DNA of 36,211 nt, from positions 1-36,211 of the forward strand of contig CANHDN010000011.1 in the NCBI GenBank assembly GCA_947459415.1, written 5' to 3'. The notes beneath the pieces are model-generated. The model saw only the letters and a list, made by a program, of their open reading frames with translations. It was not told where the DNA came from and searched no databases. Position numbers and translations under genes: made by a program. Positions 10,638 through 19,100 of the stretch are shown in pieces; position 1 is the first letter of the stretch, and every line of letters begins with the position of its first letter. This DNA comes from Bacteroidota bacterium. GTDB lineage: Bacteria; Bacteroidota; Bacteroidia; UKL13-3.

Positions 10638-12257
<1,620 letters not shown>

Positions 12258-12309: not shown

Positions 12310-12339
12310 AAAAAAACGGGGCCAGTTGCCTGGACCCCG
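12310..12339 (-). terminator. Intrinsic terminator of the candidate sRNA
   Basis: 9-bp GC-rich stem with one bulged U, GCAA (GNRA) loop, 7-U tract on the minus strand. Confidence 0.85.
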
Positions 12340-12437
12340 CTTTAGCCTATGAAACAAATTGCATTCTACCCCTAGATGCAATTATCTTTATGATGTTTCG
12401 GATCAAACCGAAATCAAATATCTATTGCTCGTCTTAT
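12310..12437 (-). ncRNA. Candidate small RNA (or ABC-F leader RNA) with three hairpins and an intrinsic terminator
   Basis: Minus-strand promoter at 12442-12471; hairpin 1 UUUCGG/CCGAAA (12396-12413); hairpin 2 AAUUGCAU-CUA-GGGG-UAG-A-AUGCAAUU (12357-12383); terminator CGGGGUCCAG-GCAA-CUGGCCCCG then 7 U (12310-12339). 5' end is inferred. Confidence 0.7.
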
Positions 12438-12441
12438 AAAA

Positions 12442-12471
12442 CAAATGTACTAAAAAAAATATGAGGCACAA
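12442..12471 (-). promoter_or_regulatory. Bacteroidetes-type promoter TTG-N19-TACATTTG
   Basis: TTG (minus) at 12469-12471, 19-nt spacer, TACATTTG at 12442-12449; exact fit to TTG-N19-21-TAnnTTTG. Confidence 0.78.
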
Positions 12472-12497: not shown

Positions 12498-12531
12498 GGT
12501 TTTTTTTGCCTGACTATGAGGCAAAAAAACC
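12498..12531. terminator. Hairpin downstream of the RND efflux operon, possible terminator
   Basis: GGTTTTTTTTGCCT / AGGCAAAAAAACC with 7-nt loop and one bulge; lies 8 nt past the RND stop. Confidence 0.55.
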
Positions 12532-12538
12532 TATTAAT

Positions 12539-15500
12539 TTATTTTATACTTCCTTTAACCAGCGGGATATTCAATTTAATTTTGATATTATTTGATATAA
12601 ATAGCATTACCGGAACTAAAATCAAGGTTAAAAAAGTTGCAAAGCTTAATCCAAAAATCATAGTCCAGCTTAAAGGCCCCCAAAATGCCACATTATCTCC
12701 ACCAAAGTGAATATGAGGTTCAAAATGAGTAAACAAACCAACAAAATCAATATTAAAACCAACAGCCAATGGAACTAAACCCAAAATGGTGGCGGAAGCA
12801 GTTAATATTACTGGAGTCATTCTGGTTTTACCTGCTTCAATAATGGCTGCTCTCATTTCCATTCCTTGCTCCATGAGTAAGTCTGTAAATTCTACCAACA
12901 AAATACCATTACGAACTACAATACCAGCTAATGCAATAACCCCAACACCTGTCATAACTACAGAAACATCCATATTAAAAATATTCAGCCCGAGCAAAAC
13001 ACCAATAATACTGAAGAAAATTTCACTGAAAATAATGATTGGTTTAGAGATTGAATTAAACTGCGTTACTAAAATTAAGAAGATTAATCCAAATGAAATT
13101 AACATGGCATTGCCTAAAAATGCACCGGTTTCTGCTTGTTTTTCTTGTTCACCAGTCATGGTAATAAGAACGCTAGATGGAAGCGGATATCTTCCAACGG
13201 CCTTTTGAATTTTTGCCACAATTTCGTTAGCATTATATCCACTTAATACATTAGAAGAAACAGTAACCATTCTGCGTTGATTTTTTCTTTTAATACCTCC
13301 AAAAGTATTTCCGTAACTAATTTTTGCTACAGAAGCCAATGGAATCTGACGGATCATACCACCCATATTCATATCTCTATAAGTGATTTTCAAATTCATT
13401 AGGGCATTCATATTATTTCTTTGATCAAAGGCATAACGCAATTGAATAGGATAATCATCTTTGGCATCTTTAAATTTTGATACCTCTGCACCAAAAATCG
13501 CGTCACGAAGTTCTTTTCCTATGATGGCAGTAGATATCCCTTCTCTATTGGCTCTTTCCCTATCTATTTCAACTACAATCTCTGGTTTGTTAGATTGCAA
13601 ATCAGATTTTAATTCTTCAATTCCTGGGATGGCTAAAGAATCTAAATAACGTTTCAAATTCTTAGACACAGCAATTAATTCATCAAAATTATCGCCCGTA
13701 ATTTCAATATTTACTGGTTTTCCGGTTGGGGGACCGCCCTGCTCCTGCTCTACTGTAATTTCTGCTCCAGGGATTCCTTTCACTGCATTTCTTATTTTAT
13801 CTAAATAATCTACCGTTGAGGCACCTTCCCTTTTTCCAAATGGAACAAATGCAACGGTAACTTTACCTAAATGTGGGCTTGTACTAAAATCAAAACTTTG
13901 CGGATTATTAGCTCCAATTGCCACATTAGAAATTACAGATTCTACTATTGGATTAGAGTCTCCAACTACCTTGTATATTCTATCTTCAATAATATGAGTA
14001 ATAGAATCTGTATACACCTGATCTGTGCCAATTGGAAGTGAGATATAGGTATAAATAAAGTTTGGATCACTCTGAGGAAAAAACACCACATTAGGCTTTC
14101 TAACACTGGTTAAAAATATAGAGAAGAATAATAATCCTACGGTTGCAACAAGCATCCAAACCGGACGTGAGCCTTGCAATACCCAAACCAAAACTTTCTT
14201 ATATTTCTCCTGAAAATTTGGCCAAGATTTTTCTTGAAAAGTTTGAATGATACCTTGAAGTACAAAACGGTTTAAGCAATATAAAGCATAAAAGGTAAGC
14301 GTTAAATTGGCTAAACCCCAGTTCTTTCCTATGTATAAAAGTAAAGCAATTACGCCAAAAACAACTGAAGTAATTTTAAAACCTTTTGTGATTTTTTTAT
14401 GGTCTTTACCCGGTGTATGTGGTTTCATAAAATCTACTGCAAATACCGGGTTAATAATATAGGCCACAAGCAATGAGGCAAGCAAGGTTACAATGAGTGT
14501 AATAGGTAAATAAAACATAAATTTACCAATTACACCTTGCCAAAACGCCAATGGTATAAAAGGGGCTAGCGTGGTTAAAGTTCCAGATAATACTGGCAAG
14601 AAAACCTCTCCGGCAGCCAACTTTGCGGCCTTCACAATCGGAACTTTACCATTATCAAAAATGCGATGCGTATTTTCTATGACTACAATGGCATCATCTA
14701 CAACAATTCCCAGAGCTAGTAAGAAAGAGAATAAAACAATCATGTTTAAGGTAAATCCAATGGCTGGCATAATTAAAAATGCCACAAACATGGATAATGG
14801 AACCGATAGCGCCACAAAAATAGCATTGGTGGTTCCCATGAAAAACATTAAGATTACCGTTACCAATATAAAACCTATAATGATGGTGTTTATTAAATCA
14901 TCTAATGTTACCTTGGTTTTATCAGATTGATCACCCGTAATGGTAACTTTTAAACCTTTTGGCAACACATTGGCTACCATGTCTTCTTTTAAAAGTTTTA
15001 TTTTATCAGATGCATCAATCAAATTTTGACCACTCTTCTTAATTACATTTAGGGTCACCACATTTTTATGGTCTAATCTGGCATAACTTTCTTTTTCTTT
15101 AAAGCCATCTGTAATGCTAGCAATATCTTTTAAATAAATGGTTGCACCACTTCCAGAGCGAATAATGATATCTCCAATTTTCTTAGAGTCTGTGTATTGA
15201 CCCACTATATTAACGGAGCGTTTTAAGCCATCCATTTTAATTAAGCCACCAGACATAGTCATGTTTTCATACTTCACAGCTGTTTCAATGTCTCGCATGG
15301 TTATATCTGCAGCTTGCATTTTATACATATCTACATCTATCTGAATTTCGCGATCGAGTGCCCCTACGATATCACAACGCGTAATTTCAGGAAAACCCTC
15401 AATACGATCTTTCATCGCTTCTGCATAATCTTTCAGTTTATCTAGCGGATAATCTCCAGAAATATGCACATTCATAATTGGAATTTGCGATACATCTATA

Positions 15501-15913
15501 TCTATCACTTCTGGCTCGCGTGTTAAATCGGTTGGTAAGTCTTTGCGCGCTTTGTCTACCGCATCTTTCACACGTTGCTTAGCAACAGGTACATCAACAT
15601 CTGTATTAAATTCAATATTGATCATAGAAAAATCTTGAATAGATGTGCTATTCACTTGTTTTACTCCATTGATAGACTTTACTTGTTTTTCAATGTGTTT
15701 GGTAACCAAGTTTTCCATGTCTTGTGGAGCGGTTCCTGCATAAATTGTGTTTACTAAAATTTGTGGAAACACAACTTCAGGGAATTGCTCCTTTGGTAAT
15801 CCGTTATAACTCATTAAGCCAGCAAGGGTAATAATGATTGTCATAACATAAATGCTGGTTTTATTATCAATAGACCAGCTAGATGGCTTAAATTCCTTTA
15901 TTTTATCAAGCAT
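12539..15913 (-). CDS. RND efflux transporter, inner-membrane permease (AcrB/MMPL-like)
   Basis: 1124 aa; 'GLPKEQFPEVVFPQILVNTIYAGTAPQDMENLVTKHIEK', 'LALGIVVDDAIVVIENTHR', 'GVIALAGIVVRNGILLVEF' typical of the AcrB family. Confidence 0.95.
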   Translation of the reverse strand: MLDKIKEFKPSSWSIDNKTSIYVMTIIITLAGLMSYNGLPKEQFPEVVFPQILVNTIYAGTAPQDMENLVTKHIEKQVKSINGVKQVNSTSIQDFSMINIEFNTDVDVPVAKQRVKDAVDKARKDLPTDLTREPEVIDIDVSQIPIMNVHISGDYPLDKLKDYAEAMKDRIEGFPEITRCDIVGALDREIQIDVDMYKMQAADITMRDIETAVKYENMTMSGGLIKMDGLKRSVNIVGQYTDSKKIGDIIIRSGSGATIYLKDIASITDGFKEKESYARLDHKNVVTLNVIKKSGQNLIDASDKIKLLKEDMVANVLPKGLKVTITGDQSDKTKVTLDDLINTIIIGFILVTVILMFFMGTTNAIFVALSVPLSMFVAFLIMPAIGFTLNMIVLFSFLLALGIVVDDAIVVIENTHRIFDNGKVPIVKAAKLAAGEVFLPVLSGTLTTLAPFIPLAFWQGVIGKFMFYLPITLIVTLLASLLVAYIINPVFAVDFMKPHTPGKDHKKITKGFKITSVVFGVIALLLYIGKNWGLANLTLTFYALYCLNRFVLQGIIQTFQEKSWPNFQEKYKKVLVWVLQGSRPVWMLVATVGLLFFSIFLTSVRKPNVVFFPQSDPNFIYTYISLPIGTDQVYTDSITHIIEDRIYKVVGDSNPIVESVISNVAIGANNPQSFDFSTSPHLGKVTVAFVPFGKREGASTVDYLDKIRNAVKGIPGAEITVEQEQGGPPTGKPVNIEITGDNFDELIAVSKNLKRYLDSLAIPGIEELKSDLQSNKPEIVVEIDRERANREGISTAIIGKELRDAIFGAEVSKFKDAKDDYPIQLRYAFDQRNNMNALMNLKITYRDMNMGGMIRQIPLASVAKISYGNTFGGIKRKNQRRMVTVSSNVLSGYNANEIVAKIQKAVGRYPLPSSVLITMTGEQEKQAETGAFLGNAMLISFGLIFLILVTQFNSISKPIIIFSEIFFSIIGVLLGLNIFNMDVSVVMTGVGVIALAGIVVRNGILLVEFTDLLMEQGMEMRAAIIEAGKTRMTPVILTASATILGLVPLAVGFNIDFVGLFTHFEPHIHFGGDNVAFWGPLSWTMIFGLSFATFLTLILVPVMLFISNNIKIKLNIPLVKGSIK

Positions 15914-15942: not shown

Positions 15943-17085
15943 TTAAAAATTTAAAAGCTCGTTATCGTTCAAATCTTGGTAACCGCTAGTAATGAGCATA
16001 TCTCCCGCTTGCAAACCAGATAAAATTTCTACTTTATCTTGATAGAATTTACCAGTTGTTACTTCTCTTTTTAAGGCTACTTTTTTACCATTTACAATGC
16101 TTGCAACGGCAACAAAAGTGCTAGTTTCTGTTTTCTGGAGTGTATTTACTGGAATGACAATGGCATTCTTTGCTTGATAATCTAACACTTTAAAAACACA
16201 AATCATATTTGGAATAAAATCTTTTCCTGCTGGTAAAGGAGATTCTATCGTAAAAGTACGGTTCATTTGACTAATAACCTTTGACGCAAAAGTGATGGTA
16301 GAACTAATCTCCAAATTATCTAAATCGGGAAAATATAAATGAACCTTATTGCCTTCATTTATTTGCTTAGCATAAGTTTCAGAAACATCTGCTTTTGCCT
16401 TTAAATCTCCCATATTTACAAGCCTAAAACATGGCATTCCTGGCGCAATACTTTGTCCAATTTTTAAGAAAACCTCATCTACATTTCCATTAATAGGCGA
16501 CTTAATTTTATACATATCTAAGTTCTCGTATAAGGTAGCCAATTTTTGTTCTAATGATTCTTTATTGTTTTTAGCACTTAAATATTGCACTTCTGATCCA
16601 ACCTGCTTTTCCCAAAGTGCTTTTTGCTTATTAAACACATCTGTTACGAAAGCTAAGTTTACTTTTAAATCTGCAATCTGACGAGCAACAATTTCTCCAT
16701 CTAATTCTGCTAATACCTGACCTTTTTTTACTTGTGATCCAGATTTTACTAATATTTTCACCACCGGACCCATAGCCCTGGCAGAGATGGTTGTATTTTG
16801 ATCTCCATCAACCCTGCCCTGAACATCGATGTAATGATTAAAAGTTGTAACAGCAATAGGTGTTACAGATACAAATTTCACTTTGGTGCTAGGCTCTAAT
16901 TCACCTTTACCAAAGGTTAAAATTTCTTCCTCTAAAGTTTTAATTTGATCCGCAATTTCTGCTTGTTGTGCTTTAAGTTTTTCTAGTGAGGCTTTCTTTG
17001 AGTCTAAAGAATCTGCGCCACCACATGCAGAAAGTAAGATTCCAATTCCTAGTAAAAGGGATAGATTATTGATTAATTTTTTCAT
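15943..17085 (-). CDS. RND efflux periplasmic adaptor (membrane fusion protein), lipoprotein
   Basis: Lipobox 'LLSACGG'; 'VQGRVDGDQNTTISARAMGPVVKILVKSGSQVKKGQVLAELD' biotinyl-lipoyl-like region. Confidence 0.93.
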   Translation of the reverse strand: MKKLINNLSLLLGIGILLSACGGADSLDSKKASLEKLKAQQAEIADQIKTLEEEILTFGKGELEPSTKVKFVSVTPIAVTTFNHYIDVQGRVDGDQNTTISARAMGPVVKILVKSGSQVKKGQVLAELDGEIVARQIADLKVNLAFVTDVFNKQKALWEKQVGSEVQYLSAKNNKESLEQKLATLYENLDMYKIKSPINGNVDEVFLKIGQSIAPGMPCFRLVNMGDLKAKADVSETYAKQINEGNKVHLYFPDLDNLEISSTITFASKVISQMNRTFTIESPLPAGKDFIPNMICVFKVLDYQAKNAIVIPVNTLQKTETSTFVAVASIVNGKKVALKREVTTGKFYQDKVEILSGLQAGDMLITSGYQDLNDNELLNF

Positions 17086-17105: not shown

Positions 17106-18458
17106 TTATTTATTATTAATAATTCCTAAAGCTTTTTTCAACTCTAATTCTGCCACAAAATATTCAAATACAGTAGACAACATATTGGTTCTAGCATTCT
17201 CTAAATCTGCTTGGGCACTGGTAAGCTCTAAGCTTGACCCCAAACCATTTTTGTATTTTAATTCCATTTTACTATAAATATCTTCAGCTAATTTTAGGTT
17301 GTCTTTTTGTATGTCTAGCTGCTGCTTACTTCTCGTATACGTAGATTTTGCTTGGTATACTTGTTGATTAATTACATTCTCAAAATTCTTAATGTCGTTC
17401 TCCGTTTTAGTTATGCCAATACTTGCTTGCTGAGTTTGGGCATGTTTTCGAAATCCATCAAAAATGGGCATCGTAACACTTAAGCCAACAGCTGTTCCTG
17501 GATAGAAAGTCTCAAATAGATTACCTAAATCATCGCCAAATGCATTTTGTTGATGGCTTGCAAACAAAAATACCGATGGCATATAACCCACCAAATACCT
17601 GCGTTTATCTAATTGGTTCAACCTCAATTGTTGTTGCAACATTTTATACTCTACCCTATTCGTGTATTCTGCTTTGTCTCCTACAGCTAATACTTGTGAT
17701 TTGGCAAATAATGCTTCAAGTTCATCTGTAAGCACCAGACTGTCTGCCATTGCTAATCCTAACTGCAGCTTAAGCACCATCATGGCTATTCTTTTTTGAT
17801 CTTGAATTTTTTCGCTTTGTAAGGATAAGTTAGACAATTGTAAGCTTAAACGATCTAGGTCTACTTTCTCTGAGAATCCATTTTTATAGAATTGTGCTAC
17901 ATCAGACTGAGTTTTCTGCAAACTAGCTAAATTAGCAAGCATCATTTTCTCGTTAGATTCTAACAATAAAACCATAAAGTATGCTTTAGAAACATTCACT
18001 TCTGTTTCTATTTCAGTTCTAGAAACATTCAGTTGAGAGAGGTTTACAAATTCTTTAGAAGCTTTTAAACCCAAAAAGAAAGTGCCATCAAATAATAACT
18101 GATTCGCAGAAACTGAAACACCACTTGTAAAATTCCTACCAAAAGCAACCTCTATAAGATCCGGACCAGTTCCTGTGGCCTGTTTTAAAAAGTTAGGAAT
18201 TACCTGCACAGGAATCTGTGTATTATTGATAACATTGGCACTGGCATTAACCTGTGGTAAACCCATTGCCACAATTTCATTTACTTTTTTCTGACTAGCA
18301 AGCACATCAAGTTTGCTATTCTTAAGCACATAGTTGTACTTTTTTGCATAATCAATGGCATCTTTCAATGCAAATTGATGGATGGTTTGTGATTGAGCTC
18401 CTGCTTTTTGTACAAGCAAAAAACAAACAAAGAGCCAAAAACCTGTTTTAATTTTCAT
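17106..18458 (-). CDS. TolC-family outer-membrane efflux protein
   Basis: Signal peptide, two long helical/outer-membrane repeats, C-terminal 'KNGLGSSLELTSAQADLENARTNMLSTVFEYFVAELELKKALG'. Confidence 0.93.
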   Translation of the reverse strand: MKIKTGFWLFVCFLLVQKAGAQSQTIHQFALKDAIDYAKKYNYVLKNSKLDVLASQKKVNEIVAMGLPQVNASANVINNTQIPVQVIPNFLKQATGTGPDLIEVAFGRNFTSGVSVSANQLLFDGTFFLGLKASKEFVNLSQLNVSRTEIETEVNVSKAYFMVLLLESNEKMMLANLASLQKTQSDVAQFYKNGFSEKVDLDRLSLQLSNLSLQSEKIQDQKRIAMMVLKLQLGLAMADSLVLTDELEALFAKSQVLAVGDKAEYTNRVEYKMLQQQLRLNQLDKRRYLVGYMPSVFLFASHQQNAFGDDLGNLFETFYPGTAVGLSVTMPIFDGFRKHAQTQQASIGITKTENDIKNFENVINQQVYQAKSTYTRSKQQLDIQKDNLKLAEDIYSKMELKYKNGLGSSLELTSAQADLENARTNMLSTVFEYFVAELELKKALGIINNK

Positions 18459-18470
18459 ATAAGCTTAAAT

Positions 18471-19100
18471 TTATGATATATTCTGATAAACGGGACTTCC
18501 TTCTAAATATTTAATTCCTTTTTCTGTGCAAATGGCACGCAAATGGTATTTAATTAATTCTGTATGTAACTTTTTAAAATCTAAATCATGACTGGTGTAA
18601 TTGTCTGGGTTAATCATAAAATCTACTAAATGAATATAAAACCTGGCTATTAATAGCTCATCTAAATTTTGATGATAATAACCCTGAAGCTTTCCTTTAC
18701 GTAGGTTCTCTAATATTTGTTCAAAAATAAAATTGACCCTAAACTCATTCAGTACATCCCAACTTTCTTTAAAGTATTTTTTTAGATCGAAAAGAACACC
18801 TTGATTAATTTGCTTTTTAACATCTCCAAAATTTTGGGTGATCGCCAACATAAAATCTATTGGATTATCTTGTTGGGTTAACATACCGCTGCAGGCATGT
18901 TTCTCCATTTTTATGTGTCTTGAAACAGTTTCATTCACTAAACTGCTTTTATCGGCAAAAAACTGATAAATCGTCTTTTTTGACATTCCTAATTCATTGG
19001 AAATATCATCCATGGTAACACGCTTAAAACCAAGTTTTAAGAATAGCGTTTCTGCAGTTTGTAAAATCTTATTTTTAACTTCTTCACTCATCAATCTCAA
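18471..19100 (-). CDS. TetR/AcrR-family transcriptional regulator
   Basis: N-terminal HTH 'ILQTAETLFLKLGFKRVTMDDISNELGMSKKTIYQFFADKSSLV'; first gene of the efflux operon. Confidence 0.93.
   Translation of the reverse strand: MRLMSEEVKNKILQTAETLFLKLGFKRVTMDDISNELGMSKKTIYQFFADKSSLVNETVSRHIKMEKHACSGMLTQQDNPIDFMLAITQNFGDVKKQINQGVLFDLKKYFKESWDVLNEFRVNFIFEQILENLRKGKLQGYYHQNLDELLIARFYIHLVDFMINPDNYTSHDLDFKKLHTELIKYHLRAICTEKGIKYLEGSPVYQNIS

Follow-up and report, generated by a model that had tools for sequence, protein, structure and literature searches.

A candidate small RNA encoded behind an RND efflux operon and its multi-locus family in freshwater Bacteroidia

Introduction

Bacterial small RNAs (sRNAs) include multi-copy siblings such as Qrr and LhrC, whose paralogous copies have a common seed and separate promoters, and RNAs derived from 3′ UTRs, such as CpxQ and FopS-14. 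Beyond Bacteroides, few sRNA families are known in the Bacteroidota, and how such RNAs act independently of Hfq is still being worked out. In Bacteroides, SusC-like mRNAs are blocked at their start codons by the FopS sRNAs, which the RRM protein RbpB antagonises; these sRNAs are present in 12–15 copies per genome and carry both the seed and the RbpB footprint in their 5′ portion (PMC11697453). Sibling sRNAs of the Qrr/LhrC type are named in the same study (PMC11697453). Rfp18 of Flavobacterium psychrophilum is a conserved structured sRNA, one stem-loop of which is predicted to base-pair with several mRNAs (PMC9723704).

Here we analyse a predicted sRNA locus in a window of 36,211 nucleotides from a Bacteroidota bacterium (contig CANHDN010000011.1). 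As with FopS, the locus belongs to a multi-locus family of short RNAs with housekeeping-type promoters, some of them apparently derived from 3′ UTRs; its paralogs have a conserved stretch and putative seed in common, and an RRM protein is encoded in the genome while no Hfq was found. Relative to FopS, the family has fewer copies (1–6 per genome, usually 1–3, with a common linker and loop), a conserved unpaired stretch that follows a 5′ hairpin and precedes the terminator, and one copy with a fixed place behind an RND operon. A species-genome scan with the linker signature yielded no Bacteroides contig, and FopS is set beside the family by description; we read the family as one that may work like the FopS sRNAs, and claim no membership in them. 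The resemblance to CpxQ and FopS-14 lies in several genera in which the core ends an RND or Hsp20 mRNA and has the terminator in common with it, whereas the window and many relatives have an sRNA promoter of their own behind the operon terminator. Paralogous copies, a common seed and separate promoters recall Qrr and LhrC, from which the family differs in sequence, phylum and targets, with no Rfam match here. It resembles Rfp18 as a conserved, structured Bacteroidota sRNA; the host of Rfp18 belongs to another bacterial family, no sequence link was established here, and the accessible part of the source reports no link to RND genes (PMC9723704).

A sharp seed candidate, a fixed address behind a multidrug pump and paralogs on different scaffolds make targets and partner directly testable, and the family would mean that freshwater bacteria control efflux pumps and stress responses at the level of RNA as well.

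Results and discussion

Layout of the locus

A preliminary description of the window had placed a promoter, two hairpins and a GNRA-capped terminator with seven U on the minus strand, and direct reading found each of them in place (Table 1), as well as the separate −7 box of the ABC-F gene (TACCTTTG, 12285–12278). The −33 and −7 elements of the sRNA promoter are 19 nt apart, and the score of this TTG-N19-TACATTTG arrangement is equalled by 1% of shuffles. The seven T of the terminator occupy 12316–12310, and its stem begins at 12340. A covariance model built from 23 copies, with the window sequence in its own training set, matches 12310–12386 at E 1.2e-17. The adjoining efflux operon is ordered TetR, TolC, adaptor, permease. 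It is closed at 12501–12529 by a near-symmetric arrangement of T-run, hairpin and A-run (TTTTTTTGCCTGACTATGAGGCAAAAAAA), which could terminate transcription on both strands.

Table 1. Positions of the predicted sRNA, its parts and the neighbouring genes in the window.
Feature	Position	Strand	Basis
Predicted sRNA transcript, ~125–128 nt	12310..12437	-	Promoter and terminator read directly; fold z −4.2; covariance model match
−33 element TTG of sRNA promoter	12469..12471	-	Direct reading; shuffle score
−7 element TACATTTG of sRNA promoter	12442..12449	-	Direct reading; promoter scans
Hairpin 1, 5′ hairpin of variable sequence, TTTCGG/CCGAAA	12396..12413	-	Fold z
Hairpin 2, stem AAUUGCAU/AUGCAAUU, mini-stem CUA/UAG, GGGG loop	12357..12383	-	Compensatory changes; arm-swap test
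Apical motif GGGGUAG, conserved; family consensus G(R)GUAG	12366..12372	-	Two alignments
Linker UUUCAUAGGCUA, conserved, single-stranded, putative seed	12343..12354	-	UUUCAUAGG invariant in both alignments
Intrinsic terminator: GC-rich hairpin, GCAA (GNRA) loop, 7 U	12310..12340	-	Direct reading; fold
Terminator hairpin of RND operon, between RND stop codon and sRNA promoter	12501..12529		Sequence reading
RND efflux permease (ACR_tran), constant neighbour	12539..15913	-	Pfam PF00873; adjacency 91/91
RND periplasmic adaptor	15943..17085	-	TIGR01730
TolC-like outer membrane efflux protein	17106..18458	-	PF02321
TetR-type regulator, first gene of efflux operon	18471..19100	-	PF00440
YbiT/EttA-like ABC-F ATPase, neighbour within genus only	10638..12257	-	Neighbourhood comparison and domain searches

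Fold and covariation

The 128-nt RNA is predicted to fold at −39.2 kcal/mol (z = −4.2), with 0 of 200 shuffles equally stable, and a 79-nt core by itself gives z = −4.4. Conservation is concentrated in about 75 nt, comprising hairpin 2, the linker and the terminator, rather than in the full 125 nt. Hairpin 1 taken by itself in the window sequence is not significant (z = −1.1, 31 of 200 shuffles as good). At the same position in the RND-type copies, the mean z is −1.44, against −0.08 and −0.55 at control positions. The hairpins found there differ widely in sequence, come mainly from the window's genus and one other genus, and are not evident beyond the closer genera among the RND-type copies compared. 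Hairpin 1 is a variable 5′ hairpin, a description that has moderate support.

In pair counts on the RND-type copies, 91.5% of cells are paired, and sliding the partner leaves 46% at most. The covariation score is 0.339 versus 0.195 in shuffled alignments, with 0 of 500 shuffles as high; the sequences are related, so that these shuffle counts are no probabilities, and the slid controls preserve the relatedness. Both-sided changes occur in all seven counted pairs of the terminator helix, and the alignments contain compensatory changes in the hairpin 2 stem. Across 17 scaffolds, cognate 5′ and 3′ arms pair at a mean of −11.6 kcal/mol and swapped arms at −6.1, and 0 of 2000 permutations match the cognate pairing. 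This cognate-arm pairing is the strongest evidence pointing to selection on the hairpin and the two modules described below as RNA. The preliminary description had looked to relatives for compensatory changes, and they are present in the alignments, the arm-swap test and the pair counts. Its proposal of an independent non-coding RNA rather than an ABC-F leader is likewise supported. As judged from sequence comparison, the locus almost certainly exists as a selected non-coding RNA.

Distribution and novelty

Within one Bacteroidia family, the covariance model matches 55 of 68 genomes, in 10 of 14 genera. When 60 relatives were searched at the DNA level, 31 genomes proved to carry the 3′ part of the RNA, and every one of these belongs to this same family. 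In a class-wide sample of 247, the model again matched the same family only, apart from two weak hits (E = 0.007) that were rejected as members since they lack the linker on inspection; class-wide pattern matches outside the family have no GGGG loop and look like background. When 85,462 species genomes were scanned with the linker pattern, 45 contigs matched, 41 of them with a full hairpin-linker-terminator unit. These 41 are Bacteroidota assemblies, nearly all uncultured; among them is the complete genome of Bacteroidetes bacterium UKL13-3 (CP012155.1), which came from a lake co-culture. The remaining four contigs match by chance and have neither hairpin nor terminator. Viral contigs gave 0 matches to the linker pattern, and spread by viruses was rejected. 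On these scans, the sRNA family does not extend beyond a single family of uncultured freshwater Bacteroidia.

An Rfam search, on which the preliminary description had made novelty depend, gave no family at the gathering threshold. With no covariance-model score above that threshold, 6S RNA and the other Rfam families were rejected as identities of the locus; matches at E up to 10 were at chance level only, the best sub-threshold one being McaS (19.1 bits versus 42). No tRNA or tmRNA was found in the locus, and none of the family's motifs was printed in a relevant context in the literature searched. As far as Rfam and this literature show, the sRNA family appears to be undescribed.

Two conserved modules on exchangeable stems

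The most conserved part of the RNA, absent from the preliminary description, is UUUCAUAGGYUA, a single-stranded linker that joins hairpin 2 to the terminator. UUUCAUAGG is invariant across every row of two alignments, while the terminators differ; stems covary and terminators vary freely. The apical loop reads GGGG in members from near relatives but UGAG in the distant ones, with GUAG kept nearly throughout. The exposed GGGG loop, put forward earlier as a natural seed or protein-binding site, therefore survives as part of a motif conserved as G(R)GUAG; GGGG itself is not fixed, and the linker is the better seed candidate. A mini-ORF within the RNA (ATG CAA TTT GTT TCA TAG) was rejected, its frame not being preserved in the paralogs as compared by eye.

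Weaker model matches elsewhere in the family's genomes proved to be the same two modules, the GRGUAG loop and the linker, on unrelated stems and terminators. One type of paralog lies directly after an Hsp20 stop codon and before ribF. Other paralogs are free-standing genes of ~70 nt with a −7 box 0–7 nt before the stem. One minimal stand-alone copy (~70 nt) with a clear promoter is situated just downstream of a tRNA-like sequence. The window's own genome has two near-identical Hsp20-linked copies at two contig ends, possibly through gene duplication or an assembly effect.

Proposed mode of action and target searches

The order of hairpin, unpaired invariant stretch and terminator is the layout of a base-pairing sRNA. 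The complement of the linker, UARCCUAUGAAA, contains AUGAAA, presumably a common start in these bacteria. On balance we favour the reading that the locus is probably an independent trans-acting sRNA of ~125 nt, the RND-operon copy of a multi-locus family, with a linker that base-pairs with mRNAs. The RNA would be made alongside the pump, through its own promoter or as a 3′ UTR. The linker would act as the seed, pairing with mRNAs at or near their start codons and blocking translation of envelope proteins. The G-rich loop may provide a second contact, either to a target or to a protein, for which the RRM protein is a candidate. All 19 genomes of the genus lack Hfq, and 17 of them encode an RRM_1 protein; with Hfq absent, the RRM protein would perhaps assist linker pairing. 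More speculatively, the two exchangeable modules might have been installed behind the RND operon, the Hsp20 gene and free-standing loci, such that envelope stress and protein stress release the same RNA onto one set of proteins or mRNAs via an Hfq-independent RRM partner.

Base pairing of this kind, which we infer from the layout, was set against the genomes. Outside the sRNA loci, the 12-mer complement CCTATGAAACAA is no commoner than the reversed control. Within the genus, sites complementary to the 12-nt core outnumber those of the reversed control only slightly, and they lie at unrelated genes. There are 60 non-sRNA TARCCTATGAAA sites in the genus, 21 of them at plausible starts; the genes at these 21 are unrelated and, one pair excepted, no gene family recurs among them. 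For the starts of the pump operon and ABC-F genes, duplex energies are within ~1 SD of those of shuffled linkers. The best single candidate target is an outer-membrane protein, carboxypeptidase-regulatory-domain-like, with a 13-nt linker match; CCTATGAAA at its start is kept in only ~6 of 30 orthologs. In two genomes this gene starts with CCTATGAAACAAA, the 13-nt linker complement, despite a diverged signal peptide.

Because the pattern searches and the short stretches compared revealed no conserved target, a protein-binding role stays a serious rival, if an unlikely one. The RNA would then be a sponge or chaperone substrate, the GRGUAG loop and the UUUCAUAGG linker forming a bipartite site for, e.g., an RRM protein titrated by several loci, with no base-pairing target. 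Such a role would be in keeping with the pair of short invariant motifs carried by interchangeable stems, with the multiple and tandem copies, and with the prevalence of the RRM_1 protein. The usual one to three copies per genome, however, are low for a sponge, and the fully invariant unpaired stretch of the linker, at 9 nt, would be long for a single RRM contact.

The RND neighbourhood and the promoters of relatives

A link to the ABC-F gene, suggested in the preliminary description by its position, gave way on comparison to a link with the pump: an RND permease gene ends at most 500 nt upstream on the same strand in 91 of 91 loci with enough upstream sequence, a count that overlaps between searches and represents fewer than 91 independent genomes. 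ABC-F adjoins the sRNA in the window's genus and not in other genera. Several genomes have two or three sRNA copies in tandem.

Of 49 distinct RND-type copies, 26 have a strict TTG-N17-22-TAnnTTTG promoter ending 20–75 nt upstream, against ~0.6 expected from the background density; the copies are related and about half of the promoters lie within RND coding sequence, so that they are not independent. The in-gene promoters sit at a conserved LILVPVMLFLS stretch at the 3′ end of the RND coding sequence, and these matches may owe something to protein constraint. In four copies, a consensus TTG-N19-TAnnTTTG is found inside the RND coding sequence ~67–70 nt before the sRNA hairpin. The window has no in-gene promoter at the RND 3′ end and carries an intergenic one, like its closest relatives. 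Nine further copies have TAnnTTGY only. The TAnnTTGC boxes upstream of six RND-type copies resemble TAnnTTGY, given in a Flavobacterium psychrophilum study as the box of the alternative-sigma motif SM5 (PMC9723704). In the remaining RND-type copies, among them most of those from one genus, no promoter can be recognised, and these copies look derived from 3′ UTRs.

These promoterless copies bear on a further explanation, that the element acts in cis in the 3′ UTR of the RND operon, in mRNA stability or as a specialised terminator, and that the intergenic promoter is incidental. Its position always directly behind the RND gene is in keeping with this, as are the genera in which the core begins no more than tens of nucleotides from the RND stop, with no promoter to be recognised, and the copies behind Hsp20 stop codons. 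A 3′ UTR-derived RNA has no promoter of its own after the upstream stop codon, which is the situation in some relatives only; in the window, the promoter (12471–12442) follows the operon terminator, and both intervene between the RND gene and the sRNA. There are also stand-alone copies that are not associated with RND genes and have a promoter directly next to the stem. We consider this explanation quite improbable.

That the RNA is a transcribed leader or attenuator of the ABC-F gene, as its upstream position on the same strand and its terminal terminator could suggest, has a very nearly negligible probability and was rejected, because that gene is not adjacent in other genera and has a separate −7 box, loci lacking ABC-F also carry the conserved core, and the complementarity of the linker to the ABC-F start does not exceed that of shuffled linkers, whereas the RND gene is the constant neighbour.
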